A stretch of DNA of 64,000 nucleotides, from NCBI RefSeq assembly GCF_037094685.1, contig NZ_CP146614.1:3968001-4032000 (forward strand), in the 5' to 3' direction. Below are positions 26,034 to 48,110 of the stretch, one piece after another. The notes below the pieces were generated by a model. The model worked only from the letters and a program-made list of their open reading frames with translations, did no database searches and was not told the origin of the DNA. Every line of letters begins with the position of its first letter. The stretch's first letter is position 1. The stretch is from Massilia sp. METH4. GTDB lineage: Bacteria > Pseudomonadota > Gammaproteobacteria > Burkholderiales > Burkholderiaceae_D. The position numbers and the translations under genes are program-made.

Positions 26034-26783
26034 TTGAACATCGCAAGTATCCCCGGCGCGCGGCATGCCGGCACCGTCCTCGAAGCCGACGGCGTCGTTG
26101 CCGGCTACGGCGGCAAGACCATCCTGCAAAAGCTCGACCTGCACGTGCGCGCCGGCGAGATCTATGCGCTGCTCGGTGCCAACGGCGCCGGCAAGACCAC
26201 CACGCTGAGCCTGTTCCTGGGCTTCGTCACCCCGGGCGCGGGTCAGGTGCGCGTGCACGGCACCGATCCCGTGGCGCAGCCGGACGAGGCGCGGCGCCAC
26301 CTCGCCTACATTCCCGAGAACGTGGCGCTGTACGAGCACCTCACGGCGCGCGAGAACGTGGCCTATCTGCTCGACCTGGCCGGGCAGGCGCATGACGCCG
26401 CCGCCATCGACGCCGCGCTGGGCGCGGCCGGCCTCGCCGCGGCGGCGTTCGACCGCCGCGTGGCCGGCTTCTCGAAGGGCATGCGGCAGAAGGTGGCGAT
26501 CGCGCTGGCGCTGGCGCGCCGGGTGCCCGCGCTGCTGCTGGACGAGCCCACCTCGGGCCTCGACCCGCAGGCCACGGCGGAATTCAACCGCCTGCTCGGC
26601 GTGCTGCGCGGGCAGGGCGTGGCGATCCTGATGGTGACGCACGACCTGCTGAGCGCGGCCGACGTGGCCGACCGCATCGGTTTCCTCGATGCCGGCCGCC
26701 TGATCGAGGAAGTGGCCGCCGCGGGCGACGACCGGTTCGACGTGCGCACGCTGCACCGCCGCTACGGCGGCCAGGCGGCATGA
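26034..26783 (+). CDS. ABC transporter ATP-binding protein
   Basis: A 249-residue nucleotide-binding subunit of an ABC-2 type exporter. Walker A GANGAGKTT (near residue 50), a Q-loop region, signature FSKGMRQKVAIALAL (near 145), Walker B ALLLDEPTSGLDP and the H-loop MVTHD are all intact. The start is TTG at 26034, placed by GGAGGA 5 bases upstream and by the Fur box 30 bp before. The gene overlaps the first permease by four bases (ATGA). Iron-regulated export or membrane-remodelling role; substrate unknown. Confidence 0.93.
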   Translation: MNIASIPGARHAGTVLEADGVVAGYGGKTILQKLDLHVRAGEIYALLGANGAGKTTTLSLFLGFVTPGAGQVRVHGTDPVAQPDEARRHLAYIPENVALYEHLTARENVAYLLDLAGQAHDAAAIDAALGAAGLAAAAFDRRVAGFSKGMRQKVAIALALARRVPALLLDEPTSGLDPQATAEFNRLLGVLRGQGVAILMVTHDLLSAADVADRIGFLDAGRLIEEVAAAGDDRFDVRTLHRRYGGQAA

Positions 26784-28237
26784 GCGCCGCCGTGCCCATC
26801 GGGCCCATCGCCCGTGTCGCGCGCATCGCCGGCGAGGAGTGGCGCGCGCTGTTCCGCGACCGCGCCGCAGTCGCCGGCGTCGTGCTGCTGACGGTGCTGA
26901 CGCTGGTGGCGGCGCTCACCGCTTACGAACACCAGCGCAATGCCGATGCCGAGCGGGCCCGCTACCAGGCCCAGGCCAACCACGAGTTCGCGGCCCAGCC
27001 GGACCGGCACCCGCACCGCATGGTGCACTACGGGCACTTCCTGTTCCGCCCCCTGAATGCACTGGCCGCGTTCGACCCGGGCATCGACGGCTTCACGGGC
27101 AACACGCTGTTCCTCGAAGGGCACCGGCAAAACAGCGCCAACTTCGGCGACGTGCGGCAAACGTCGCTGCTGCTGCGCTTCGGCCAGCTGACGCCGGCGT
27201 TCGTGCTGCAGGTGCTGGCACCGCTGCTGCTGGTGTTCTTCGGCCACGCCGCCGTGGCGCGCGAACGCGAGACGGGCACGCTGCGCGTGCTGCTCGCCCA
27301 GGGCGTGGGCAGCCGCCAGCTCGTGCTGGGCAAGCTGCTGGCGCTGGCCGGCTTTGCCGGGTTGGCGCTGCTGCCGGCGCTGGCCGCCCTGGCGTGGTTC
27401 GCGGCAGCCGGCCATGCACCGTGGCCGCTGGCCCTGGTGCTGGCCGCCGGCTACACCGCCTGGCTGCTGCTGTGGGTGCTGACGGTGGTGCTGGCGTCGA
27501 TGTGTGTCGCGCGCGGGCGCGATGCCTTGCTGGTGCTGCTGACCGCGTGGGCGGTGAGCGTGATCCTGCTGCCGCGCTGGGTGCCCGACCTGGCCAACAC
27601 CGCCGTGGCGCTGCCCACGCGCTTCGAGGATGCCATCCATGTGCAGCGCGATTACCTCGCGCTGGGCGACTCGCACAATCCGGACGACCCGAAGTTCGCC
27701 GCCTTCCGCGACGGCTTGCTCAAGCAGTATGGCGTATCGCGCGTGGAAGAATTGCCGGTCAACTTCAAGGGCCTGGTGGGCATGGAGGGCGAACGCAAGT
27801 CCAGCGAGCTGTTCAATCGCTACGCGGCCGCTGCGTTCGAACGGCAGGAACGGCAGGGCGCCATGATCGATGCTTTCGGCTGGGCCAGCCCGGCGCTGGC
27901 GCTGCGCCGCCTGTCGATGGCGGCGGCGGGCACCGACCTGGCGAGCTACCGCGGCTTCCTGGAGCAGGGGGAGCGCTATCGCTACGCGCTGATCCAGGGG
28001 CTGAACCGCATCCAGGTGGATCGGTTGGCCTATGCCGACGATATCGACGCCCGCAAGGACAATCGGGTGTCGCGCGAGCACTGGGGCCATTTCCCCGAGT
28101 TCCGCTATGAAGCGCCGCCGCTGGCCGATACGCTGGGCCGCGTGGTGCCCGCGGGAGCCGCCCTGGCGCTGTGGATCGTTGCGCTGGGCGCGCTCGTGTG
28201 GACGCTGGCCGGCCGGCTGGGGAGGGTGGCGCGATGA
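26780..28237 (+). CDS. ABC-2 type permease, DUF3526-like
   Basis: A 485-residue membrane subunit. One helix near residues 30-50 is followed by a large extracytoplasmic domain (about 55-140). A set of helices follows from about 145 to 265 (VLQVLAPLLLVFFGHAAV, LLALAGFAGLALLPALAALA, LLLWVLTVVLASM). A second soluble loop (about 275-445) and a last helix near 455-475 complete it. RERETGTLRVLLAQG is the typical loop of NatB/ABC-2 permeases. ATGA overlaps with the neighbours on both sides indicate translational coupling. Probably pairs with the next permease as a heterodimer. Confidence 0.88.
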   Translation: MSAAVPIGPIARVARIAGEEWRALFRDRAAVAGVVLLTVLTLVAALTAYEHQRNADAERARYQAQANHEFAAQPDRHPHRMVHYGHFLFRPLNALAAFDPGIDGFTGNTLFLEGHRQNSANFGDVRQTSLLLRFGQLTPAFVLQVLAPLLLVFFGHAAVARERETGTLRVLLAQGVGSRQLVLGKLLALAGFAGLALLPALAALAWFAAAGHAPWPLALVLAAGYTAWLLLWVLTVVLASMCVARGRDALLVLLTAWAVSVILLPRWVPDLANTAVALPTRFEDAIHVQRDYLALGDSHNPDDPKFAAFRDGLLKQYGVSRVEELPVNFKGLVGMEGERKSSELFNRYAAAAFERQERQGAMIDAFGWASPALALRRLSMAAAGTDLASYRGFLEQGERYRYALIQGLNRIQVDRLAYADDIDARKDNRVSREHWGHFPEFRYEAPPLADTLGRVVPAGAALALWIVALGALVWTLAGRLGRVAR

Positions 28238-29586
28238 GCTGGCTGGCCTTCGAACTGCGCCTGATCCTGCGCTCGCGCCTGTCCACCGCCGCGCTGGCAC
28301 TGCTGTTGCTGCTCGCGAGCCTGGCGGTATGGTCCGGCATGCACGAAGTGGAGCGGCAGCGGCAGACGATCGCGCGCCTGGCGCCGCTGCACGAGCAGGA
28401 CGTGGCCGCCCTGGCGGCCCGCTACCCGAACGGCAAGGATGCCGGCAACGCCGCCTACTACACGTTCTACAACACGTGGGATGCGCCGTCGGACGCCGCC
28501 TTTCTCGCCCTCGGCCTGCGCGACGTGGCGCCATATGTGCTGCGTATCCGCGCGCTGGGCCTGCAGGCCCAGCTCTACGAAGGGGAAACCTTCAATCCGG
28601 AAGTGGCACTGCCTGGCCGCTTCGACTTCGCCTTCGTGCTGATCTACCTGGCGCCCCTGTTCGCAATCGCGCTGCTGCACGACCTGGTGTCGGGCGAGCG
28701 CCAGTCGGGCCGCCTGCGGCTGCTGCAGGCGATGCCGGGTGCAGGCCGGCTGTGGCGGCGGCGCGTGGGGCTGCGCTATGCCTTGCTGTTCGCCGGCCTG
28801 GCATTGCCGGTATGCGCCGGCGCGGCGCTGTCGGGCATGGGCCTTGCCGCCACGCTGGTCGTGCTGGCGGTGGCGGCGGCCTACCTGGCATTCTGGACCG
28901 GCGTGTCGCTGCTGGTCGCCACGCGCCGTTGGCGCTCCGTCACCAATGCCACCGCGTTGATGGGCGCCTGGGCGCTGCTCACGCTCGTGCTGCCCACCCT
29001 GGCCAACGTGGCGCTGGGCCGCGCGATCCCCGTGCACCAGGGCGTGGACCTGATGCTGGCGCAGCGGCAGACGGTGCATGGGGCCTGGGAAGTGCCGCGC
29101 GCGGAAACGATGCGCAAGTTCGTGGCCACCCACCCGGAATGGAAGGATCGTGCCGAGGTGGCGGGCCGCTTCCACTGGAAGTGGTATTTCGCCTTCCACC
29201 AGGTGGGCGACGAGAGCGTGGCCGGCGCGGTGCGCGCCTACCGCGATGGATTGCAGGCGCGCCAGGGCTGGACGGAGCGGCTCGGCTGGCTGTTGCCCGG
29301 CGTGGGCGCGCAGGCCGTGCTGCACCGGCTGGCGGACACCGACCTGCCGGCGCAGCTGGCCTACCAGGACGCGATTGCGGCCTTCCACGAGCGCATCCGC
29401 AAGTTCTACTACCCCTACCTGTTCAATGACAGGCCCTTCGGCACCGCCGATTTCGACCGGCGGCCGGCGTTCGTGCCACGCGTGCCCGGCGGGGCACCGC
29501 CATGGCTTGACGCCGCGGTGTTGATGCTGCTGGCAGGCGGCGTGCTGGCGGCCGGGCTGGCGCGGCTCGGGCGCCTGCGGCAGTGA
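28234..29586 (+). CDS. ABC-2 type permease, DUF3526-like
   Basis: A 450-residue permease related to the preceding one. It has an N-terminal helix (about 12-32), an extracytoplasmic domain (YTFYNTWDAPSDAAFLALGL region), central helices (about 145-270) containing GERQSGRLRLLQAMPGAG, a second soluble domain and a C-terminal helix near 425-445. GGAGGG precedes the ATG, which overlaps the previous stop. The -35 of the following riboswitch promoter overlaps its stop codon. Confidence 0.88.
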   Translation: MSWLAFELRLILRSRLSTAALALLLLLASLAVWSGMHEVERQRQTIARLAPLHEQDVAALAARYPNGKDAGNAAYYTFYNTWDAPSDAAFLALGLRDVAPYVLRIRALGLQAQLYEGETFNPEVALPGRFDFAFVLIYLAPLFAIALLHDLVSGERQSGRLRLLQAMPGAGRLWRRRVGLRYALLFAGLALPVCAGAALSGMGLAATLVVLAVAAAYLAFWTGVSLLVATRRWRSVTNATALMGAWALLTLVLPTLANVALGRAIPVHQGVDLMLAQRQTVHGAWEVPRAETMRKFVATHPEWKDRAEVAGRFHWKWYFAFHQVGDESVAGAVRAYRDGLQARQGWTERLGWLLPGVGAQAVLHRLADTDLPAQLAYQDAIAAFHERIRKFYYPYLFNDRPFGTADFDRRPAFVPRVPGGAPPWLDAAVLMLLAGGVLAAGLARLGRLRQ

Positions 29587-29612
29587 CAAACCCGCATCGG
29601 CGCGGGTAGAAT
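29583..29612 (+). promoter_or_regulatory. Promoter for the cobalamin-riboswitch transcript
   Basis: GTGACA (29583-29588) and TAGAAT (29607-29612) are separated by 18 bp and give a sigma-70-like promoter. Transcription would begin about 10 bases before the riboswitch core. This lets the chelatase operon be expressed independently of the Fur-controlled ABC operon. Confidence 0.5.
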
Positions 29613-29624
29613 CCTCCGTTTGAC

Positions 29625-29830
29625 GCAAACGGTGTCCTCCCGCCTGCCGGCCGGAGGATGAAACGGGAAGCCGGTGCCGCGCGGGATTGCCTCCCGCGCC
29701 AGGCCGGCGCAGCCCCCGCTGCTGTATGCCCGACGACCCGGTTCCACCGCCACTGTGCCGCGCACGGGAAGGCAAGGACCGGGAAGGATGACGGCGAGCC
29801 AGAAGACCGGCCGTTTGCCCCGAAGTGCCG
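29625..29830 (+). promoter_or_regulatory. Cobalamin (AdoCbl-type) riboswitch
   Basis: The conserved blocks occur in order: GGGAAGCCGGTG (29666-29677), GCAGCCCCCGCTGCTGT (about 29708), CCACTGTG (about 29752), ACGGGAAGG, and the signature B12-box-like GCCAGAAGACC (about 29799-29809). The spacing matches the cobalamin riboswitch family. A GC-rich stretch at 29829-29855 (GGGGTGTGGTCCTGCCCC) may be the expression platform, acting on translation because no T tract follows. It should shut off the downstream chelatase-ExbB-DUF2149 genes when cobalamin is plentiful. Confidence 0.92.
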
Positions 29831-29884
29831 GGCCCGGGGTGTGGTCCTGCCCCATGTTTATCGCGGCAATTCGGCCGGACGACC

Positions 29885-32035
29885 TTGACCATAGCTCCCT
29901 TCGTGCGCGCGCTGGCCGCGCTGCTGTGCATCCTGGCCTGCGTGCACGCCGGGGCCGCGACCATGTTCGCGCTCGTGACCGAGCGCGCCGCGCCGGTGGC
30001 GATCGAAGCCGCGCACCGGCACCTGGCCGCCCATCCAAAAGACCGCATCGAACTGCGCACGCCGGCGCAATGGATGGCGCTGGACGAGCGGGAGGTGGCA
30101 CGGCTCGTCGCCGGAGCCGACACGATCCTGGCCGTTTCACTGTTCGGCGATCCGGCGCACAAGCTGAAGGCCGCGCTGGCACGCCACGCCAGGGCGCGCA
30201 CCACCGTGCTGGCCTTCAATGGCGATGCGGCCCTGAGCCTGATGAGCCGCGATGCGCGCGGCGCCATGCGCGATTTTCCGGCCGAGACACTGCGCGACCT
30301 GTCCACCGAAGCGCCGCCGGCCGCCGCCTTGCGAGCCGCCGAGGCGCATGCTGCCGCAGTGCACTGGCTCGCCGCGCGCCGCGTATGGCAGGCCGGCGGT
30401 GCCGACAACACCGCGGCACTGATCGCGCACCGGCTGCACCCCGCAACGCCGCTGGCCGCTCCGCTGCCGGAACCGACGCTGCGCGTGAAGGCGGGCGGGC
30501 GCGAACTCGTCGACGCCGCCGCCTGGGGCAACGGCGCGCAACTGGGCCTGGCGGCACGGCCGGCCGTCGTGGTGCTGGACCTGTCGAACATGGATGCGGC
30601 GGTGCCTGCCGCCGTGTGCGCGCGCATCGAAGCCGCGGGCCGGCCCTGCGTGCAGGTGCTCGCGCGCTGGGGCGGCGCATCGCGCGAGGCGCTGGAACGG
30701 TTGCCCGAGCTGGTCGCGCCGGCCCGGCCGGCCGCCCTCGTGGTGCTGCAGGATTTCGTGGTGGGCGCGGCGGAAGGGCGTGAAGCGGTGACCGAAGCGT
30801 TGGCACGCCTCGACGTGCCGGTGTTCAAGGGGATTCGCCTGTCGGACCGTACCGCGCTGCAGTGGCGCCTGTCGCCGGATGGCCTGCCGCCGGACTCGGT
30901 GCAATACCGCGTGGCGCTGCCGGAACTGCAGGGCATCGGCCAGCCGATCGTGGTGGCCGCGCTTGGCCAGGCGCAGCGCGACAGGGCGACCGGCATCGAG
31001 AACCGGCCGCCGGTGGTGCTGGAGGCGGAAACGGCGCGGCTGGCGGGGCGCGTCGCGCGCTGGCTGGCACTGCGCGACAAGCCCAATCGCGACAAGCGCG
31101 TCGCCCTGATCTACTACAACCACCCGCCGGGGCGGCAGAACATCGGCGCCGACAACCTCGACGTGCCGGCCTCGCTGTTCGACATGCTCCACGCCTTGAA
31201 GGATGCCGGCTACACCGTGGGCGACCTGCCGGCCTCGCCGGAAGCGCTGCTGGACAGGATCATGGCCCAGGGCGTGAACCTCCCGGAAGACCGCGCCGCG
31301 CTGCGCGACATGGCAGGCACCGTGCACACGGTCGGCGCGGCCGACTATGCGAAATGGTTCGCCACCCTGCCGCCGCGCGTACGGCGCGAGATGACCGGCG
31401 GCTTGCTGGGGCGGCTGCATGTGGACGTGCTGGAAGCGGAACGCGCCGGCGAATGGCAGCTGGGCCGCAAGCAGGTGGACGTGATCGTAAAGGAATTGCA
31501 GCACCTCGTGGAAGGCGCCGATCACCCGCGCCGCGAGGCTGCCATGCGCGACCTGGCGGCGCTGGGCGACGGCTATCGCGCGTGCCTGGCCGCGAAGGCC
31601 GCGCAGCGCTGTGCCTCGCTGGATGGCTTGAGCCGCAAGTTGGCCGGCTACGGCATCGAAGGCTTGAAAGGATGGGGCGCCGCGCCCGGCCACATCATGG
31701 TGGACAGCGGCCGCATGCTGGTGCCAGGGATCGTGTTCGGCAATGTGTTCATCGGCCCGCAACCGCCGCGCGGCTGGGAAGTGGACGAGGAACTGCTGCA
31801 CGCGAACACCAGCATCACGCCGCCGCACCAGTACCTGGGCTTCTACCACTGGGTGCGCGACCGCTTCGGGGCCGACGCGCTGGTGCACGTGGGCCGCCAC
31901 TCCACCTATGAATTCCTGCCCGGGAAAGCGGTGGGGCTGGCAAGCGACGACTATCCGAGCCTGATTGCCGGCGACCTTCCGGGCATCTACCCGTACATCG
32001 TCGATGGCGTGGGCGACGGCGCGGTTTGGCCGTGA
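29885..32035 (+). CDS. cobN: CobN/HmuS-like periplasmic chelatase, N-terminal part (frame broken at 32.02 kb)
   Basis: About 716 residues from a TTG start at 29885 (GGACGA just upstream; start uncertain). A signal peptide (ALAALLCILACVHAGA) predicts export. The rest matches the N-terminal half of CobN/magnesium-chelatase H proteins: KPNRDKRVALIYYNHPPGRQ, NIGADNLDVPASLFDML, and near the C-terminus HQYLGFYHWVRDRFGADALV, HVGRHSTYEFLPGK and YPYIVDGVGDG. Biosynthetic CobN is cytoplasmic. This exported form with ExbB and DUF2149 partners resembles the HmuS class described as haem dechelatases. Translation stops at 32035, where family members continue with LQAKRRG. The second half continues in another frame at 32026. 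Confidence 0.85.
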   Translation: MTIAPFVRALAALLCILACVHAGAATMFALVTERAAPVAIEAAHRHLAAHPKDRIELRTPAQWMALDEREVARLVAGADTILAVSLFGDPAHKLKAALARHARARTTVLAFNGDAALSLMSRDARGAMRDFPAETLRDLSTEAPPAAALRAAEAHAAAVHWLAARRVWQAGGADNTAALIAHRLHPATPLAAPLPEPTLRVKAGGRELVDAAAWGNGAQLGLAARPAVVVLDLSNMDAAVPAAVCARIEAAGRPCVQVLARWGGASREALERLPELVAPARPAALVVLQDFVVGAAEGREAVTEALARLDVPVFKGIRLSDRTALQWRLSPDGLPPDSVQYRVALPELQGIGQPIVVAALGQAQRDRATGIENRPPVVLEAETARLAGRVARWLALRDKPNRDKRVALIYYNHPPGRQNIGADNLDVPASLFDMLHALKDAGYTVGDLPASPEALLDRIMAQGVNLPEDRAALRDMAGTVHTVGAADYAKWFATLPPRVRREMTGGLLGRLHVDVLEAERAGEWQLGRKQVDVIVKELQHLVEGADHPRREAAMRDLAALGDGYRACLAAKAAQRCASLDGLSRKLAGYGIEGLKGWGAAPGHIMVDSGRMLVPGIVFGNVFIGPQPPRGWEVDEELLHANTSITPPHQYLGFYHWVRDRFGADALVHVGRHSTYEFLPGKAVGLASDDYPSLIAGDLPGIYPYIVDGVGDGAVWP

Positions 32036-34260
32036 TCGTCGACCACCTGACGCCGCCGCTGGCCAGCACGCCGCTGTACGACGAGCTGCTGGCGCTGCGC
32101 CAGGTCGTGGAAAGCTACGAGGCGGCCAGCTCGGAATCGCTGAAGGCGCAGGCCGCCGGCGTGATGCGGGAGCGCGTGGCGGCGCTGAACCTGAAGGCGG
32201 AGCTGGAAGCGTCGATGGCGGACGTGCTGGCCGTGCGCGGCATCGGATACGACGCGGCGGACGACGACCTGCTGGCGCACGAGATCGGCCACTATCTCAC
32301 CAAGCTGCAGGAAAAATTCATGCCGCACGGCTTGCACGTGTTCGGCCGGCCGTGGCGGCAGGAATCGATCGACCTGATGCTCGCCTCGATGAGGAAGGGC
32401 GGCATCGACAGCCCGGACGTGGCGGGCCGCCTGGCCGATTCGCCGCGCCTGGAGATGCGCGCGCTGCTGGCCGGCCTGGACGGCCGCTACATCGCGCCCG
32501 GCAAGGGCAACGATCCACTGCGCTCGCCCGAGGCGCTGCCGACCGGGCGCAATTTCCACGCCGTCGACGGCGACATCCTGCCGACGAAACTGGGTTACCA
32601 GCTGGGTGCGAACCTGGCGGGCAAGGCCATCGCCCGCGCGCCCGATGCCGCGGGCAGCGAAGGCATCATCCTGTGGGCTTCCGACGCGGTGCGCGACGAG
32701 GGGGTGATGGTGGCATTCGCGCTGGCCATGATGGGCGCCGAACCCGTGTGGAATGCGCGCGGCATCGTCACCGACGTGCGCGTCAAGCCGGGCGCGCCGC
32801 GGCGCGACGCGGTGGTGACCACGTCGGGCCTGTTCCGCGACCTGTACCCGAACCTGATCCGGCTGATCGATCGCGCCGGGCGGCTGGCGCTGGCAGCATC
32901 GGCCAACAGCCTGGTGGCGCAGGACCCGTCGCTGCGCACGGCGCTGGAAGCGGCGCTGGCGCCGTTGAACGATGCCGCCTGGGGCGACGAGCCGGTGGCG
33001 GGCAATCGCGTGGCCGGCGAATGGCTCGTGCGTTTCCGTGCGCTGGCGCGTTCCGGCCAACCGCTTGCCGATGCCGGCCGGGGCGCGGCGCAGCGCGTGT
33101 TCGGCGACGCACCCGGCGCCTACGGCACGGGCGTGAACCGGCTCACCGAGCGTTCCGGCGCCTGGCGCGAGCGGGACGAGATCGGTGCCGCCTACCGCAA
33201 CCGCATGGGCCACGCCTATGGCCTCGACGGCAGCGGCGAGGCACAGCATGCGGCGTTCGACGCCGCGCTGGACGGCATCGCCCGCACCTACCACGGCCGC
33301 GCCAGCAACCTGTACGGCCTGTTGGACAACAACGATGCCTTCGACTACCTGGGCGGCCTGTCGCTGGCCGTGGAAGGGCGCACCGGCCGCGTGCCCGACG
33401 CGCTGATCCTGCAGCATGCGCAGCCCGGTCGCGCGGACGTGGAACCGCTGGCCGGCGCATTGCTGGGCGAGCTGCGCGGCCGCTTCCTGAACCCGGCCTG
33501 GCTGAAACCGCTGATGGAGCACGGCTATGCCGGCGCGCGCACCATGGGCCAGGAATTCCTGGAAAACCTGTGGGGCTGGCAGGTCACGCGCCCCGACCTG
33601 GTGAAGAACTGGGCGTGGGATGAAGTGAAAGCGGTCTACTTCGACGACCGCCACGGCCTCGGCCTGCCGCGCTTCCTCGGCGAACGCCACAACGCGCACG
33701 TGAAGGCGCACATGCTGGCCATCTTCATGGTCGCCGCAGAGAAGGGCTACTGGAACACCGACGACGCCACCATCGGCCAGATGGGCGGCGAGCTGGCGCG
33801 GCTGGTAACCGCCAACGGCCTGCCCGGCAGCGGGCACGCCGCGCCGGACCACCCGATGTGGCAGTGGCTCGCGCCGCGACTGGACGGCGCCGATGCCGCG
33901 GCACTGGCCGTGACACTCGCGAAGGCGCGCGGCGAATTGCAGCCGGACGCCACCAACAGCCGAGCTCGTGTCATGGGGTCAGGAAGGAGTGATGCCGTGC
34001 ACGGCATCACCGCTGCAGCGGCGAGGAGCAGTGCTCCTCGAAACCCCGCCTCGCCCCCAGTGACACGGACTCGGCAAGAAGAATCCGCACGGGCCGAACC
34101 GCCGCGCGCGTATGAACTCCATGCCCAGGAGCCGGCGCCCGAGGCACCCGGCATCGCCATCATCAAACTGCTGGCCATCCTCGCCACCGCCATCGCCCTG
34201 TTCGCGCTCGGCCTGTGGCGCGGCCGCACCACATCCCCCTTATCGAGGAGTATTCCATGA
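32026..34260 (+). CDS. cobN: CobN/HmuS-like chelatase, C-terminal part with membrane anchor
   Basis: The 744-residue continuation of the chelatase in a shifted frame. Reading just before 32026 gives RRG, then LAVIVDHLTPPL, the conserved point after GDGLQAK in intact homologues. Family motifs follow: PHGLHVFGRPW, LPTGRNFHAVDGDILPTKLG, GIILWASDAVRDEGVM, the DLYPNLIRLIDRA segment, NRMGHAYG and the ENLWGWQVTRPDL region. A low-complexity linker follows (about 640-700), partly made by a palindromic DNA element. The protein ends with a membrane helix (IAIIKLLAILATAIALFALGLW). The TTG at 32026 has no ribosome site, so separate translation is doubtful. The stop overlaps the next ATG (ATGA at 34257). 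Confidence 0.85.
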   Translation: MAVIVDHLTPPLASTPLYDELLALRQVVESYEAASSESLKAQAAGVMRERVAALNLKAELEASMADVLAVRGIGYDAADDDLLAHEIGHYLTKLQEKFMPHGLHVFGRPWRQESIDLMLASMRKGGIDSPDVAGRLADSPRLEMRALLAGLDGRYIAPGKGNDPLRSPEALPTGRNFHAVDGDILPTKLGYQLGANLAGKAIARAPDAAGSEGIILWASDAVRDEGVMVAFALAMMGAEPVWNARGIVTDVRVKPGAPRRDAVVTTSGLFRDLYPNLIRLIDRAGRLALAASANSLVAQDPSLRTALEAALAPLNDAAWGDEPVAGNRVAGEWLVRFRALARSGQPLADAGRGAAQRVFGDAPGAYGTGVNRLTERSGAWRERDEIGAAYRNRMGHAYGLDGSGEAQHAAFDAALDGIARTYHGRASNLYGLLDNNDAFDYLGGLSLAVEGRTGRVPDALILQHAQPGRADVEPLAGALLGELRGRFLNPAWLKPLMEHGYAGARTMGQEFLENLWGWQVTRPDLVKNWAWDEVKAVYFDDRHGLGLPRFLGERHNAHVKAHMLAIFMVAAEKGYWNTDDATIGQMGGELARLVTANGLPGSGHAAPDHPMWQWLAPRLDGADAAALAVTLAKARGELQPDATNSRARVMGSGRSDAVHGITAAAARSSAPRNPASPPVTRTRQEESARAEPPRAYELHAQEPAPEAPGIAIIKLLAILATAIALFALGLWRGRTTSPLSRSIP
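33960..34074. repeat. Palindromic element inside the chelatase linker
   Basis: 115 bp with imperfect outer inverted ends (CCGAG..CGTGTCA at the left; TGACACGGACTCGG at the right). Inside are a perfect 22-bp palindrome at 33989-34010 (arms GTGATGCCGTG and CACGGCATCAC) and a 17-bp palindrome at 34023-34039 (GAGGAGCA, G, TGCTCCTC). It resembles intergenic REP-like elements but lies in frame within coding sequence, just before the membrane anchor. Confidence 0.6.
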
Positions 34261-34712
34261 TCGAACCCCATTCCTTCGCCTGGCTGCACGACGCGGTCAG
34301 CTGGCTGTTGACGCCCGCGCTGGCGGCGCTGTTGCTGGCCTGTGCCGTGGCCGTGGTCGAGGCGGGCATCGCGGCGGGGGAGCGCTTCCACGGCTTGCGG
34401 CGCCTGCGCGAAGGCGGCGACGTCGCGCAAGTGCAGGCCATTGCCCGCCGCCGGCTGGAGCGGGCCGACCTGCTGGCGCGCATTCCGCCGATGCTGGGAC
34501 TGATGGCCACCATCATTCCGCTCGGGCCGGGCCTTGCGGCGCTGGGCGCGGGCGATCCGGCACAGCTGGCGAGCGCCGTCACGGTCGCATTCGATGCGAC
34601 GGTGCTGGGACTCGTGGCCGGCATCGGCGGCCTCGTGATCGGCAAGCTGCGCCGCCGCTGGTACGAGGAAACGCTGGAAGCGATGGAGAACGTGCAGGAG
34701 GCGGCGGCATGA
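34257..34712 (+). CDS. MotA/TolQ/ExbB-family proton channel protein
   Basis: 151 residues with three membrane helices: one near 12-33 and two in the C-terminal half. The family core is LLARIPPMLGLMATIIPLGPGLAAL, then LASAVTVAFDATVLGLVAGIGGLVIGKL, matching the ExbB/TolQ/MotA pore helices. It overlaps the chelatase stop (ATGA) and the DUF2149 start (ATGA), so the three are translated together. It probably uses proton-motive force to power the periplasmic chelatase, as ExbB/ExbD does for TonB. GAGGAG precedes the ATG. Confidence 0.92.
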   Translation: MIEPHSFAWLHDAVSWLLTPALAALLLACAVAVVEAGIAAGERFHGLRRLREGGDVAQVQAIARRRLERADLLARIPPMLGLMATIIPLGPGLAALGAGDPAQLASAVTVAFDATVLGLVAGIGGLVIGKLRRRWYEETLEAMENVQEAAA

Positions 34713-35041
34713 GCGCGCGCCCCGGCCGCCGGCGGCTGCGCCTGTATTCCCACCTCGATGCGCGCTTCGACGGCGACGACGAAGACCCGCGCGCCAGCCT
34801 GGTGAACCTGGTCGACGTGATGCTGGTCTTCGCCTGCGGGCTGATCGCCGCGATCGCCGGCAGCCAGGGCGCGTTGAAAGCGCCCCGGCCGGTCGAAAAG
34901 GGCCGGCAGATCGAGCGGCCCGCCACCGGCATCACGCAGGCGGGCAGCGGCTACGACCGGGTGGGCGAGGTCTACCGCGATCCGAAGACCGGCAAGCTGG
35001 TGCTCGTCGAGCCGGCTGCGCCGTCAGGAGCGAAGCCGTGA
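34709..35041 (+). CDS. DUF2149-domain protein (ExbD-like partner)
   Basis: A 110-residue single-pass membrane protein. The family motif DPRASLVNLVDVMLVFACGLIAAI (helix near residues 28-47) includes the conserved aspartate of the NLVDVMLVF stretch, which resembles the ExbD/TolR/MotB proton-path residue. The C-terminal part (YDRVGEVYRDPKTGKLVLVE) is periplasmic. DUF2149 proteins are regularly linked to CobN-like and ExbB-like genes. Its 3' end overlaps the convergent PEP-CTERM gene by 18 bp. Confidence 0.9.
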   Translation: MSARPGRRRLRLYSHLDARFDGDDEDPRASLVNLVDVMLVFACGLIAAIAGSQGALKAPRPVEKGRQIERPATGITQAGSGYDRVGEVYRDPKTGKLVLVEPAAPSGAKP

Positions 35042-35866
35042 CCGCGCGCGCAGCCTTGTGCCGCCGAGGACCAGCAAGCCCGCGAACATCATCGACAGCG
35101 CGGCCGGTTCCGGCACCGGCTGGGCCGCCATGGCATTGACCCAGGTGTTGAAGCTCACGGTGCCGTACTGGCCTTCCAGCGCCGTATTGTCGTAGGCCAC
35201 GGTCATTGTCAGCGTCGTGTCCACGTCGCGCGGCGCGCCCCAGGCCGGGTCCGCGTGCACGGTCACCAGCTCATGGTCCCAGTCGAAGCCGGTCGTGTCC
35301 GGGAAATGCCCCATCATGAGGTACATCCAGCTCGCGCTCTGGAACCATTCGTTCGTCCCCGCCGCGCCCGTCACGCCGGCCTGCACGTGCAGGGTCGTGG
35401 AAAATTCCACGCGCGTGTTCGCCGACAAGGTAAAGCCCATGTCGCCGACATACATCCACGAGCCGACCTGCACGTCGCCGTGCTCGCCGGGGTTCGCGCT
35501 GGCCTCGATGGTCAGCCGTTGCGTCGCCGGCTGGCCGCGGCCGTCGAGCCGGGCCGTGATCGCACCGGCGCTTCCCAGGTCGTAGCCCAGCACGAGCGGG
35601 TCGGTGCCCGTCGCGGCCTGCTCGACGAAGCGGGAATCGTCGCCCACCGCGTAGCGAACGCTGCCGTGTGCCATGTTCACCGGGTCGACCGGGCCGGGGT
35701 TGGGCAACGGTTCGAACACGAGCGAGGGGGCGATGCCGTCTTCCGGGGCAAGGTCCACGAGCGTATAGCTCAGCTGGCCCTGCGTGACCCGGCCGGAAGC
35801 GCCGGCCAAGGCTGGCGGCTGCCAGGCGGCAAGAGCAATTGCGAGGATGGCGGCGAGGATCTTCAT
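35024..35866 (-). CDS. PEP-CTERM sorting domain protein
   Basis: A 280-residue exported protein: signal peptide MKILAAILAIALAAWQPPALA, a beta-rich mature domain without recognised family, and a C-terminal sorting signal VPEPAALSMMFAGLLVLGGT followed by a basic tail (RLRARSRLRS). The PEP motif, helix and arginine tail match substrates of exosortase EpsH, which are processed and sent to the cell surface or exopolysaccharide. The exosortase gene is not in the window. Function otherwise unknown. Confidence 0.9.
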   Translation of the reverse strand: MKILAAILAIALAAWQPPALAGASGRVTQGQLSYTLVDLAPEDGIAPSLVFEPLPNPGPVDPVNMAHGSVRYAVGDDSRFVEQAATGTDPLVLGYDLGSAGAITARLDGRGQPATQRLTIEASANPGEHGDVQVGSWMYVGDMGFTLSANTRVEFSTTLHVQAGVTGAAGTNEWFQSASWMYLMMGHFPDTTGFDWDHELVTVHADPAWGAPRDVDTTLTMTVAYDNTALEGQYGTVSFNTWVNAMAAQPVPEPAALSMMFAGLLVLGGTRLRARSRLRS

Positions 35867-37311: not shown

Positions 37312-37638
37312 GCAGTATACCGAAATGCCTATCGTTTCGTCACCGGGACGGTGGTGTCGCCGGGCGGGGCGCGGGCACGGGGGAGGACGCCGGAATGTCG
37401 ATGACCAGCACGTCCGGCACGCGCCGGCGCTCCTGCTGTTGCAAGGCCTGAGTGGCCATGGCCCGGCGCGGCGGCTCGGGGCGGGGTGGTTTCGGAAGCA
37501 TCGTTGTCCGGGCGAGAATTTTGTGGTGCAAATGCGGCCCATTGCACATTTTGCAAGCCCGGTGTGCTAATGTGCGCGAGGGGATGCGTGGGCATGCTTA
37601 TAATTCTTGAGATAAAGCTAACTTGCCTGGCGCGGTAT
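37312..37638. other. Intergenic region without a convincing gene
   Basis: 327 bp between the divergent hydroxylase and TonB-receptor starts. A 69-codon minus-strand frame (37340-37549, proline/arginine-rich) has no ribosome site. A TATAAT sequence at 37599-37604 lies 35 bp before the receptor ATG but lacks a good -35. Promoters for both genes must be here. Confidence 0.4.
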
Positions 37639-39576
37639 ATGAGACCAAACAAATACGGTCCGATCATCAAGGGTGCGTCAATCGCGGCAGCATGCCTGGT
37701 CCTGGCTTCGGGGAGTGCAAGGGCCGCGCCGCAACAGGACGACATCGCCGAACTGTCGCTCGAGCAGTTGAGCGACATCGTCATCACGTCCGTCTCCAGG
37801 CAGGAAGAGCGCCTCGGCAACGCCGCCGCCTCGATCTACATCATCACCGGTATCGACATCCGCCGCAGCGGCGCGCGCACCCTGCCCGAGGCGCTGCGGC
37901 TGGCGCCGAACCTGCAGGTGGCACGGGTGGACGCGCGCAACTACGCGATCACGGCGCGCGGCTTCAACGGCGTGCAGTCGAACAAGCTGCTGGTGCTGGT
38001 CGACGGCCGCAATGTCTACACGCCCCTGTATTCGGGTGTGGCGTGGGATGCGCTGGACGTGCTGCTCGAAGACGTGGAGCGCATCGAGGTGATCAGCGGA
38101 CCGGGCGCCACCATCTGGGGCACCAACGCCGTCAACGGCGTGATCAACGTGATCACCCGTTCGGCCAAGGATACCCAGGGTGGCCTGCTGGCGGGGTCGG
38201 CCGGCAAGGACGACCGCGACGCCAGTGCGCGCTACGGCGGCGCGCTGCCGAACGGCGGCCATTACCGCGCCTATGCGCGCGTGATGGAGGCGGACGACGC
38301 GGCCGGCGGATCGAGCCAGGTCGCCACCGGCTATACGCGCCGCCAGGCGGGATTTCGCGCCGACTGGGACCGCCCGCGCGGCGGCTTCATGCTGACCGGC
38401 GACGTGTACGACGGCGACCTGGCGCAGCGCAGCGCCGGTTCCACGCAGATCTCGGGCGCCAACCTGGTGGCGCGCTTCACGCGCCTGCTGCCGGACGATT
38501 CCCAGCTGCGCCTTCAACTGGTGCTCGATCACACGGAGCGCAACCAGCCGAACGTGATGTACGAGCGGCTCGACACGGTGGACCTGGAAGCGCAGCACAG
38601 CGTGCGCTTCGGCTTTCACGGCGTGACCTGGGGCGCCACGTACCGCCAGTCGCGCGACCGTATCGCCAATGGCCGCAACCAGGCTTACCTGCCGAACGAC
38701 CTGACCATGCGCTGGGGCAGCCTGTTCGCGCAGGACGAGGTGACGCTGGCCGACGACGTGCGGCTGATCGCCGGCGCGAGGGTCGAGCACAACCATTACA
38801 CTGGCACGGAATTCCTGCCCAGCCTGCGCCTCGCGTGGACGCCGGGCAGCCACCTGCTGTGGGGCAGCCTGGCGCGCACGGTGCGCGCACCGTCGCGCGT
38901 GGACCGCGATTACTACACGCCGCTGCGCATCGTGACGGTGGGCGGCGTGCCGCGTTACCGCTTCGGCGGCGGGCCGCAGTTCGAATCGGAAGTGGCGAAG
39001 GTGGCGGAGCTGGGATACCGCTTCACGCCGTCGCCGAGCTGGTCGTATTCCGTGACGGCGTTCTTCGCCCGCTACGACCGCTTGCGCACGCAGGAACCGA
39101 ATCCCAACGGGCCGGCGTACAGCGGGCTGACCGAATTTCGCAATATGGGCTACGGCAACACGCGCGGCCTGGAGATGTGGGCACGCTGGCAACCGACGGA
39201 CACCTGGCGCCTGAGTGGCGGACTGGTGGTGCAGGACGTGGAGACGGCGTTGCGGCCCGGCAGCCGCGACCCGAGCGGCGCGGCCGGCCTGGCGACGGCG
39301 GACCCGCGGCATTACTGGCAGCTGCGCTCCTCGCACGACCTGCCCGGCAATATGCAGCTGGACTGGACGCTGCGCAAGGTGGGCGCGCTGGAGCGCCCGG
39401 CCGTGCCGTCCTACCACGAGCTCGACGTGCAATGGCTGTGGAAGGCCACGCGCAACCTGGACGTGGCGCTGGTGGGCCAGAACCTGCTTCACAAGTCCCA
39501 CCCCGAGTTCGGAGCGGCGCCGAACCGGAGCGTGTTCGAACGTACCGCCGTGCTCAGGCTCACTTACCGTTTCTGA
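37639..39576 (+). CDS. TonB-dependent outer-membrane receptor
   Basis: 645 residues. A signal peptide (GASIAAACLVLASGSARA) precedes LSLEQLSDIVITSVSRQEER, the form found in receptors linked to YfiR genes. The plug domain (about 45-160) has IYIITGIDIRRSGARTLPEA, LVLVDGRNVYTPLYSG and VERIEVISGPGATIWGTNAV, followed by NGVINVITRSA. The rest is a beta-barrel ending in LRLTYRF with the terminal phenylalanine. The next two genes (YfiR-like and hybrid kinase) follow at 1-bp spacing, so the receptor probably works as an input to a signalling pathway. Ligand unknown. Confidence 0.93.
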   Translation: MRPNKYGPIIKGASIAAACLVLASGSARAAPQQDDIAELSLEQLSDIVITSVSRQEERLGNAAASIYIITGIDIRRSGARTLPEALRLAPNLQVARVDARNYAITARGFNGVQSNKLLVLVDGRNVYTPLYSGVAWDALDVLLEDVERIEVISGPGATIWGTNAVNGVINVITRSAKDTQGGLLAGSAGKDDRDASARYGGALPNGGHYRAYARVMEADDAAGGSSQVATGYTRRQAGFRADWDRPRGGFMLTGDVYDGDLAQRSAGSTQISGANLVARFTRLLPDDSQLRLQLVLDHTERNQPNVMYERLDTVDLEAQHSVRFGFHGVTWGATYRQSRDRIANGRNQAYLPNDLTMRWGSLFAQDEVTLADDVRLIAGARVEHNHYTGTEFLPSLRLAWTPGSHLLWGSLARTVRAPSRVDRDYYTPLRIVTVGGVPRYRFGGGPQFESEVAKVAELGYRFTPSPSWSYSVTAFFARYDRLRTQEPNPNGPAYSGLTEFRNMGYGNTRGLEMWARWQPTDTWRLSGGLVVQDVETALRPGSRDPSGAAGLATADPRHYWQLRSSHDLPGNMQLDWTLRKVGALERPAVPSYHELDVQWLWKATRNLDVALVGQNLLHKSHPEFGAAPNRSVFERTAVLRLTYRF

Positions 39577-46454: not shown

Positions 46455-46707
46455 GGGCGAAGTACTCGGTGCATTGTCGACCCCGGTCAGTGAAGGTGTT
46501 GACTCCGAATGAGGAGATGTAGTCCGCCTCGCCGAAGCTCACCTCGCCGTCACGGTTGAGATCCATCGCGGCGTACGCGAGGGGAGATCGATATACCATC
46601 CAGCCAAACAGGAGCCAGTAGCCGGTGAGCACCAGGACGGCCAATAAGGTGGCCTTCTTCAGCCGGCCCTCCGGCATGCGGAGGGCGATACGCAGGTCAG
46701 CCATCAT
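46411..46707 (-). CDS. Small membrane protein with an EF-hand-like loop
   Basis: 98 residues. One membrane helix (about 20-40, ATLLAVLVLTGYWLLFGWMV) is followed by a calcium-loop sequence DLNRDGEVSFGEADYI (near residues 49-64) with D-x-N-x-D-G-x-(V)-x-F-x-E spacing close to the EF-hand/dockerin loop. Two cysteines near the C-terminus may form a disulfide. Its ATG overlaps the stop of the upstream M16 gene, giving translational coupling; it is the third gene of that operon. Confidence 0.65.
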   Translation of the reverse strand: MMADLRIALRMPEGRLKKATLLAVLVLTGYWLLFGWMVYRSPLAYAAMDLNRDGEVSFGEADYISSFGVNTFTDRGRQCTEYFALKDGLRLKTACRQR

Positions 46708-48110
46708 TTGCCGGCCGGCTTGAACCCGTCCGCACTGATATCGAGCTCGGTCACCTCGCCATACTTGGCCGCCACCTTGCGGATATCGTCCGCCTTCCCG
46801 ACCAGCACCATCTGCAGGTTATTGCGCGGGAAATGCTTGTCCACCAGCTGCTTGGCCTTCACGGGCGTGAGGCCATCGACGTCGCGCATGAAGTTGTCGA
46901 TCTGCGCGCGGTCCACGCCCAGCGCGTACATGTCGCCCAAGAGGCTTGCCAGCTGTTCGCTCGTCTCGAAGCGCGGCGGGAACTGGCCCTTCACATAGGC
47001 CTTGGCCGAATCGAGGGTGGCCTTGTCGATGCCTCCGCCGTTACCCGTTCCCCACAGGCGGTTGTAGGTCTTCAGCGCCAGGTCCAGGGCGGCTTCGGTC
47101 TTGGCCGACGCCGTGAAGCTCGACATGCTGAACAGGCCCGATTGCGCCAGCGGCGCGAACGCGCTGTTGGCGCCGTAGGTGAGGCCGGAGTTCACGCGCA
47201 GCTCGTCGTTCAGCCACGACGTGAAGCGCCCGCCCAGCACCGTGTTCAGCACCTGCAGGGGCACGTAGTCGGCATCGTTGCGGGCGATGCCGGGGCCGCC
47301 GATGACGAAGGTGGTCTCGATCGCGTCGGGCTTGTTGACGAGCCACACGCGCGGCTTGTCGGCCAGCGGCTTGCCGTAGTCGGCGCGCTGCGGCGGAGGG
47401 CCATCGGCCTTCCACTGGCCGAACAGCGTCTCGATCTGCTTGCGCATGGCCGCGGGGTCGAAGTCGCCGACCACGATCACGGCCGCGTTATCGGGCCGGA
47501 AGTAACGCTGGTGGAAGCCCTGCACGTCGCCGCGCTTCAGCGCGGACAGGCTGTTCACCGTGCCGCCGGGCGGGCTGGCATATGGCGCGTCGCCATACAG
47601 CATGCTGCGGTAGTAGGTGCCGGCAACCTGGCGCGGGCTTTCCTTGGCCTGTTTCAGGCCGCTGACCTTGCGGGTCTTCAGCTTGTCCAGCTCCGTTGCT
47701 TCGAAGCTCGGTTGCTGCACGATCTCGGCGAACAGCGGCAGCAGGGCGGCCGCGTCGTTTTTCGCGAAGTTCGCCTGCACGGTCGTCTGCTCGGTCGCGC
47801 TGCCGCCTGCAAGCTGCGCACCACGGAAGTCGAACGCCTCGTCGATGGCGCTCTTGCTGTGCTTTTCGCTGCCCAGCAGGATTGCGTCGCCCGTCAGGTT
47901 CGCCAGGCCGGCCTGGGGCCCGTCGTTGACGGCGCCGGCCTTGACGACGGCGCGCACGGCGATCAGCGGCACTTCGTGGCGCTCCATCAGCATCACTGTC
48001 AGGCCGTTGGGAAGCCTGGTCGTTTCGAACTGCGGCACCTTGAATTCGGCGGCGCAGGCAACGCCGGTTGCGCCGAGCAGCGCCGTGGTGAACACCAGTT
48101 TCTTCATCAT
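46704..48110 (-). CDS. M16-family peptidase homologue, inactive subunit
   Basis: 468 residues, with a signal peptide (KLVFTTALLGATGVACA). Two M16/LuxS-like domains follow: NGLTVMLMERHEVPLIAVRAVV, the region GLANLTGDAILLGSEKHSKS where active members have HxxEH, and a C-terminal domain with YGANSAFAPLAQSG. The zinc motif is absent. Such a subunit normally pairs with an active M16 protein, encoded just upstream with a 4-base overlap, to form a periplasmic heterodimeric peptidase. Confidence 0.92.
   Translation of the reverse strand: MMKKLVFTTALLGATGVACAAEFKVPQFETTRLPNGLTVMLMERHEVPLIAVRAVVKAGAVNDGPQAGLANLTGDAILLGSEKHSKSAIDEAFDFRGAQLAGGSATEQTTVQANFAKNDAAALLPLFAEIVQQPSFEATELDKLKTRKVSGLKQAKESPRQVAGTYYRSMLYGDAPYASPPGGTVNSLSALKRGDVQGFHQRYFRPDNAAVIVVGDFDPAAMRKQIETLFGQWKADGPPPQRADYGKPLADKPRVWLVNKPDAIETTFVIGGPGIARNDADYVPLQVLNTVLGGRFTSWLNDELRVNSGLTYGANSAFAPLAQSGLFSMSSFTASAKTEAALDLALKTYNRLWGTGNGGGIDKATLDSAKAYVKGQFPPRFETSEQLASLLGDMYALGVDRAQIDNFMRDVDGLTPVKAKQLVDKHFPRNNLQMVLVGKADDIRKVAAKYGEVTELDISADGFKPAGK

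Follow-up and report, generated by a model that had tools for sequence, protein, structure and literature searches.

The window, as we term the whole 64,000-nucleotide stretch analyzed here (Massilia sp. METH4, contig NZ_CP146614.1, positions 3,968,001 to 4,032,000), contains an operon in which a cobalamin riboswitch is followed by a frame-broken gene for a CobN-like chelatase and by genes for an ExbB-like proton-channel subunit and a DUF2149 protein. Its features are given below in window coordinates; group A is the chelatase clade delimited in a later section, and HmuS and BtuS are CobN-like proteins with which it is compared.

29613-29829, + strand: cobalamin riboswitch aptamer RF00174 (103.1 bits, full model 1-189)
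29885-32035, + strand: 5′ half of the broken CobN-like gene (group A, BtuS-type; PF02514, E 4.6e-102)
29885-29959, + strand: signal-peptide-like N-terminus with a putative TTG start at 29885 (by inspection and from the N-termini of relatives)
31886-31915, + strand: group-A motif HVGRHSTYEF (alignment of relatives)
32018-32035, + strand: frame break, net 16-bp deletion (comparison with relatives)
32026-34260, + strand: 3′ half of the CobN-like gene, in the other frame (PF02514, E 1.3e-127)
33325-33348, + strand: group-A motif DNNDAFDY, aligned with HmuS LSLDHxxEF (alignment)
33962-34075, + strand: in-frame copy of a dispersed repeat in the C-terminal linker (genome repeat comparison)
~34150-34218, + strand: C-terminal hydrophobic helix, putative membrane anchor (by inspection; same in relatives)
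34257-34712, + strand: ExbB-like proton-channel subunit (PF01618, E 3.2e-8; ATGA-coupled)
34709-35041, + strand: DUF2149, ExbD-like single-helix protein (PF09919, E 4.1e-9; ATGA-coupled)

The aptamer scored 103.1 bits (E 1e-24) against an Rfam gathering score of 31.5 bits and was the sole Rfam match in the window at gathering scores; the riboswitch reported in a preliminary description of this DNA thus passed the covariance check, and B12 control is upheld. The open frame holding the chelatase 5′ half spans 29825-32035. Both halves match the Pfam family PF02514 (CobN-Mg_chel), and each matches nine CobN/BchH models of NCBIfam, none of which reaches its cut-off. By inspection, a hydrophobic N-terminus and a C-terminal helix are present in the window protein and recur in its relatives, in agreement with the export-type ends described earlier. 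The coupled ExbB-like/DUF2149 pair of that description was recovered by profile searches, with ATGA overlaps at 34257-34260 (chelatase/ExbB) and 34709-34712 (ExbB/DUF2149).

The break in the chelatase gene

All 17 relatives compared across the junction (16 full loci and one truncated at a contig end) read through it in a single frame, and the window is short by a net 16 bp near 32,020. The deletion falls in an invariant loop, VGEG-QAKRR, whose Glu aligns with Glu-577 of HmuS from Bacteroides thetaiotaomicron (PDB 9d26); the His codon at 31898-31900, within HVGRHSTYEF, aligns with HmuS His-538. Glu-577 is part of a proposed His-carboxylate dyad (PMC12583661; here and below, published work is cited from the parts of each paper that were available). 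A programmed frameshift at 32026 was ruled out because the relatives have 16 more bases and one open frame. With its chelatase gene broken by this short deletion, the operon is expected to yield just the motor plus the chelatase in two fragments. The window copy is probably dead, and the family-level interpretation developed below therefore applies more to the family than to this strain.

That this copy still functions, either because an error in sequencing or assembly produced the break or because the overlapping open reading frames give a two-piece protein, is possible at rather poor odds. Changes unique to the window occurred in nonsynonymous:synonymous numbers of 7:31 in the 5′ half and 3:25 in the 3′ half (ratios 0.23 and 0.12), within the ranges for four intact sisters (0.15-0.33 and 0.12-0.56, respectively), and such counts mean that the break is either very recent or an assembly error. 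The two frames overlap by GTGA at 32032-32035, and hmuS of B. thetaiotaomicron was once wrongly frame-shifted in an assembly (PMC12583661). Against a working copy, the loss is a clean 16 bp rather than a homopolymer slip, it strikes the invariant loop with the catalytic-dyad residue, and no export signal was visible by inspection on the 3′ half. The repeat in the linker (33962-34075) matches 20 other genome sites at 74-96% identity, 15 of them over at least 60 bp; this repeat family is partly palindromic.

A riboswitch-linked family in a corrinoid salvage setting

The first search covered 120 genomes, namely the source genome of the window (G000) and 119 relatives, 71 of them from the same genus. 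Sixteen same-genus relatives had close homologues, one of them truncated at a contig end, with 77-84% identity across the 3′ half; Methylobacillus arboreus (G095), from another family, contained a homologue with ~62% identity. A riboswitch lay directly upstream of all 17 same-genus group-A copies, the window's included. From a second scan, of named genome contigs, the best 80 of 261 relatives were kept; 10 of these loci match contigs of the 120-genome set in length, so the two sets overlap. The best 80 include loci from Massilia, Duganella, Pseudoduganella, Zoogloea, Dechloromonas, Methylobacillus, Methylophaga, Pseudomonas, Azotobacter and Steroidobacter, as well as Nitrospirae and Nitrospinae metagenome-assembled genomes. 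A frame longer than 2.5 kb spanned the match in 80/80 loci, the motif H.GRHSTYEF was found in 78 and DNNDA[FY]DY in 73, and ExbB and DUF2149 accompanied 77 and 78 of them, respectively. L115 failed the motif and ExbB tests, the script having picked an overlapping frame; in L133 and L095 the frame stops before the protein match does, and L146 is cut by a contig end.

A same-strand riboswitch was detected upstream at 71 of the 80 loci (no more than 1 kb from the gene at 44 of them and farther away at 27; that of L150 scores only 23 bits), and six of the nine misses have less than 4 kb of upstream sequence. These calls were made with a model, R1, built from 18 sequences, and Rfam placed riboswitches at the same sites in 8/8 cross-checked loci. 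Four more group-A loci came from a phylum sample of 398 evenly drawn genomes: the riboswitch was strong in L084 and L087, L085 had a weak one (33.5 bits), and the L086 score of 26.9 bits fell short of the cut-off. We conclude that the window locus is a damaged copy of a widespread bacterial machine with B12-type riboswitch control.

The operon in M. arboreus comprises the riboswitch, a BtuB-like receptor (TIGR01779 match below cut-off), BtuM (matching PDB 8c7p with E 8.9e-56), CobO, CobB, the chelatase, ExbB and DUF2149; its surroundings contain a second riboswitch, on the opposite strand, together with additional BtuM and BluB genes. Genome G477 has the order riboswitch-btuM-cobB-chelatase-exbB-DUF2149-cobO, and G454 a similar island. 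CobB amidates cobyrinic or hydrogenobyrinic acid. It exceeded its equivalog cut-off in G095, G477 and G454, and CbiC was found in none of the three, so these bacteria seem to take up early, unamidated corrins. Among the 80 loci, CobO was labelled in 29, CbiA/CobB in 26, BluB in 21 and BtuM in 11 (BLAST labels, not profile-checked per locus), and 38 contained a corrinoid gene other than a receptor. CbiC was absent from 15 of the 22 group-A genomes tested, that is, from 10/17 same-genus genomes, one of which is just 83% complete, and from each of the five remaining ones (G095, G477, G454, G401 and G395); the MetH domain was present in 22/22. The gene's retention in genomes that lack corrin-ring synthesis narrows the "cobalt or corrinoid handling" first suggested for this locus to corrinoid salvage, and the riboswitch and corrinoid-gene linkage seen in the synteny survey make the setting corrinoid rather than heme. 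A role as a step of B12 biosynthesis was rejected on the same CbiC counts, and the cobalt-early set of G000 itself (CbiX-like, CbiD) needs no CobN. BtuM occurred in 3/22 group-A genomes (G095, G477 and G454) and in 0/17 of the same-genus ones when searched with one BtuM, and the machine was accordingly rejected as a general energizer of this solitary transporter. A fourth BtuM match was in G141, a genome of the chelatase group C described below.

G000 is a single contig of 6.88 Mb with three B12 riboswitches, that of the window included. The second precedes cbiM-type cobalt transport and anaerobic corrin genes (L070), and the third a btuB/ATP-binding cassette (ABC) uptake set (L071; names mostly by eye in both). 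CbiC and CbiD were confirmed by profile and a CbiX-like protein was named by eye; G000 seems to make corrin by the cobalt-early route, and the MetH B12 domain is present. No further CobN-like protein was found in G000 at E ≤ 1e-20 using the chelatase 3′ half. CobT (TIGR01651) was not found above its cut-off in any of the 120 genomes, G000 included; there were two weak matches, both outside the genus, and none in the 72 same-genus genomes. The absence of CobT noted in the preliminary description thus holds for G000 and its same-genus relatives, and homologues with export-type N-termini were found that are not consistently linked to cobT; CobS was not searched for. At L066-L068, in same-genus genomes that gave no CobT match, a few kb separate cbiD from a canonical-looking cytoplasmic CobN gene, i.e., a cobalt-late chelatase gene in a cobalt-early-looking cluster.

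The motor pair and the chelatase active site

ExbB and DUF2149 have the make-up of an ExbB/ExbD-type motor: a MotA_ExbB channel protein (PF01618) and a single-helix partner with a membrane Asp. Helix 29-53 of DUF2149 contains Asp-36, invariant in 42 aligned sequences (mean predicted local distance difference test score (pLDDT) of the model 65, low). In the phylum sample, DUF2149 was detected at 18 loci in 17 genomes; because group A is only just within reach of the Pfam model (the window scores 27.0 bits), it is undercounted in this sample. At all 18 loci a CobN-like and an ExbB-like gene adjoined DUF2149, in L072 with one gene between. DUF2149 also matched in a control genome, that of Methanosarcina acetivorans, an archaeon without an outer membrane. 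These gene neighborhoods suggest that the motor pair goes with the chelatase and not with TonB receptors.

An alternative has been proposed in print, where the receptor is the assigned partner of the proton-channel gene (PMC10100974, PMC4542158); ExbB and DUF2149 would then energize an outer-membrane receptor, as put forward for HmuU/HmuV (PMC10100974), and take no direct part in chelatase action. Membership of the ExbB family (PF01618) is compatible with that role, and TonB receptors were found near 14/16 phylum-sample loci and 47/80 group-A loci. We nevertheless judge it improbable. The chelatase is the partner at all 18 sampled DUF2149 loci, and the further DUF2149 match is in an archaeon that has no outer membrane to energize. 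No recognizable receptor was found at 2/16 phylum-sample loci (one near a contig end) or at 27 of the 68 group-A loci with ~7 kb on both flanks, in a BLAST search against 12 receptors that distant ones may escape. In L072, moreover, the operon contains exbB-DUF2149 and, further on, its own complete exbB-exbD-tonB set. An effect of HmuT, U or V on HmuS was left open in PMC13227078.

In a tree of 34 rows made by a quick method, group A forms one side of a branch with Shimodaira-Hasegawa-like approximate likelihood ratio support of 100, apart from group B, group C, cytoplasmic CobN and ChlH/BchH; the branch leading to HmuS is very long, and the precise position of HmuS is uncertain. Group B is a second riboswitch-linked chelatase type in the same genus (L050-L059, L072), with the order riboswitch, exbB, chelatase at ten same-genus loci; the small gene between exbB and the chelatase is DUF2149-like in the three group-B loci printed. 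L072, a group-B locus, also contains a BtuF-CbiZ fusion, CbiK and DUF2162. Nine of the eleven group-C tree rows have no riboswitch in the locus, and receptors lie nearby.

The columns of the catalytic His and Glu (HmuS His-538 and Glu-577) are kept in 20/20 group-A rows, the window's Glu position lying at the deletion. Other features of HmuS are missing. At the columns of His-254, Asp-1208, His-1209 and Glu-1212, group A has Asp, Asn, Asp and Asp; the site-1 ligand His-254 is replaced by Asp in 20/20 rows aligned with MAFFT (Glu for L036 by phmmer), and DNNDA[FY]DYLGG stands in place of the motif LSLDHxxEFMGG, which holds His-1209 and Glu-1212. The methionine-rich insertion of ~120 residues is absent as well, the spacing of aligned pieces being ~90 residues in L036 versus ~295 in 9d26. 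With these residues missing and the clade separate, the close kinship with HmuS first suggested for the window protein is not supported. The residue before the catalytic His is Arg in group A, Lys in three cytoplasmic CobN rows and Thr in other rows, the divergent row L079 excepted; among the rows compared, group A shares a basic residue there only with cytoplasmic CobN, which has Lys before His-522 (PMC12583661). The predicted body of the Massilia phyllostachyos member has a class-I chelatase fold (mean pLDDT 77).

Several neighbors of the operon were also recorded. Directly 5′ of the riboswitch is an ABC transporter operon (26034-29586; ATPase and two permeases with DUF3526), and homologues of its permeases are also upstream in L035, L036 and L037, not in L034. 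The TonB receptor at 37486-39576 belongs to the TOL_0244 family (NF053590, above cut-off); it was rejected as a fixed partner, being of this family rather than BtuB and having a close homologue downstream only in the nearest relatives, L034-L037, of 17 loci. Directly after DUF2149, the minus strand encodes an exported protein (35024-35866) with a PEP-CTERM-like C-terminus (by eye). An ARAGORN call of tRNA-Arg at 47246-47339, inside a minus-strand peptidase-like open reading frame (46704-48110, by eye), is probably false.

Corrinoid salvage and the relation to known chelatases

Class-I chelatases such as CobN and ChlH are cytoplasmic enzymes with an ATP motor. The large clade described here, from Beta- and Gammaproteobacteria and from Nitrospirae and Nitrospinae assemblies, retains the chelatase body, which appears to lie outside the inner membrane and is paired with a proton channel; the clade is under B12 control and often occurs in organisms that lack corrin synthesis. 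We propose that the locus family is a B12-repressed, proton-powered periplasmic corrinoid-salvage machine, and give this statement as a whole a probability of about 0.55. We infer export, proton drive, substrate and reaction direction for group A; corrinoid salvage with a dedicated motor is the part held with good confidence, and metal insertion or exchange as the reaction is a tentative assignment. In this proposal, scarcity of adenosylcobalamin would release operon expression through the riboswitch. The chelatase would be exported, anchored by its C-terminal helix and driven by the dedicated ExbB/DUF2149 proton motor, which would take the place held by the CobS/CobT ATPase (of the AAA+ class) for cytoplasmic CobN and would replace ATP, which is absent from the periplasm. 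Scavenged corrins would thereby be made usable, most likely either by placing cobalt into metal-free corrins or by replacing a wrong metal; uptake would follow, and then amidation (CobB/CbiA) and adenosylation (CobO) inside the cell. In the cobalt-late pathway, three successive steps match CobB, the CobN-like protein and CobO; here the metal step would be placed outside the inner membrane. Group A thus predicts an additional corrinoid-salvage step, which to our knowledge is on no familiar pathway chart.

Insertion or exchange of metal is more likely than the stripping of cobalt. A dechelatase of the HmuS kind, removing metal (cobalt) from corrinoids, would have a precedent in the best studied periplasmic relative, since HmuS is a dechelatase with ExbB/ExbD-like partner genes (PMC12583661, PMC10100974). 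We consider it very unlikely here: expression should be released when B12 is short, in corrin-using cells often without corrin synthesis, where stripping would be self-defeating; cobalt corrins resist cobalt removal (PMC6771967); and the HmuS-specific residues are absent from group A. Even in the BtuS family, dechelation appears not to be clear-cut from the available account, in which porphyrin release from heme persisted in a Bacteroides fragilis double mutant of btuS1 and btuS2 (PMC6460266). An inserting machine, by comparison, has a plausible job, because some purple sulfur bacteria, when grown without cobalt, form corrinoids free of it (PMC6771967) and zinc enters free corrin more than 20 times faster than cobalt (PMC6771967, PMC6790578). 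In the most specific form of this idea, group A would work in the periplasm as a cobalt insertase or metal exchanger, acting on scavenged corrins that contain no metal or the wrong one, a proton gradient would replace the AAA+ ATPase, and CobB/CobO would let bacteria lacking corrin-ring synthesis make B12 from early, cobalt-free corrins. This version is doubtful; if true, it would describe a salvage route absent from the cited papers. A proton-driven carrier that is not a chelatase, passing BtuB-delivered corrinoid to BtuM or BtuCDF with the motor supplying conformational work, would suit the position in btuB/btuM/btuF-type clusters, the joint regulation with uptake genes, and the match of the M. 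arboreus BtuM to a cobalamin transporter (PDB 8c7p). It is unlikely, given that the catalytic His/Glu columns are kept throughout the 20 group-A rows and that BtuM, found in so few of the group-A genomes, is not a general partner.

Several observations weigh against the salvage machine we favor. No non-receptor corrinoid gene was seen within ~7 kb at 42/80 loci. The predicted body matches CobN, ChlH and HmuS about equally, which leaves the reaction direction unsettled by the model, and the substitution counts show no relaxation in either half of the window chelatase. Because CobB and CobO reside in the cytoplasm, metal handling in the periplasm would have to precede amidation, unlike the order in CobNST. 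No biochemical or genetic study of any group-A protein was found in the literature, and among the matches listed (subscription papers lying outside) there was no recognizable account of the proteobacterial clade, its motor or its CobB/BtuM link. Should the reading hold, ExbB/DUF2149, so far assigned to outer-membrane receptors, would gain a role with the chelatase, a prediction that extends to HmuS and to a Zur-regulated Pseudomonas operon.

Among known systems, CobN of CobNST shares the Pfam family and the basic residue before the catalytic His with group A; it is cytoplasmic with ATP-driven CobS/CobT partners, whereas the window family has an export-type N-terminus, a membrane anchor (by inspection) and proton-channel partner genes. 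HmuS is alike in its class-I fold, catalytic His/Glu, periplasmic side and ExbB/ExbD-like partners. It differs in that group A lacks equivalents of His-254, His-1209 and Glu-1212 and the methionine-rich insertion, forms a separate clade, and has a B12 riboswitch where HmuS has a heme setting. The Pseudomonas aeruginosa operon PA1922-PA1925 likewise combines a TonB receptor, a CobN-like protein, a channel-type protein annotated as ExbD, and DUF2149 (PMC9431628, PMC4542158), but is Zur-controlled; group C is only presumed to be of this type, the PA1923 sequence not having been compared.

The closest description is that of BtuS, which, according to PMC6460266, Rodionov proposed in 2003 to be a third type of CobN serving the salvage of metalloporphyrins. 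Growth on heme iron was poor in the B. fragilis double mutant of btuS1 and btuS2 (PMC6460266), BtuS2 of that species has been called HmuS and tied to heme iron (PMC13227078), two BtuS proteins were named in Methanosarcina barkeri (PMC10846266), and hmu-like operons with cobalamin riboswitches in Bacteroides led to the suggestion of a role in cobalamin metabolism (PMC10100974). BtuS and group A are both CobN-like, predicted to be periplasmic and membrane-anchored, of a third type beside CobN and ChlH, and given a predicted salvage role; group A answers to the definition of an exported, anchored CobN homologue regulated by or clustered with B12 genes, its ends judged by inspection. Group A differs in being mostly riboswitch-linked, in having its own active-site signature, and in often occurring with cobB/cobO. 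It is best called a proteobacterial BtuS, a likeness drawn from the description of the family rather than from the BtuS1 sequence. The BtuS family and the riboswitch operons of Bacteroides were known before; the proteobacterial clade, its motor linkage and its salvage context appear to be new.

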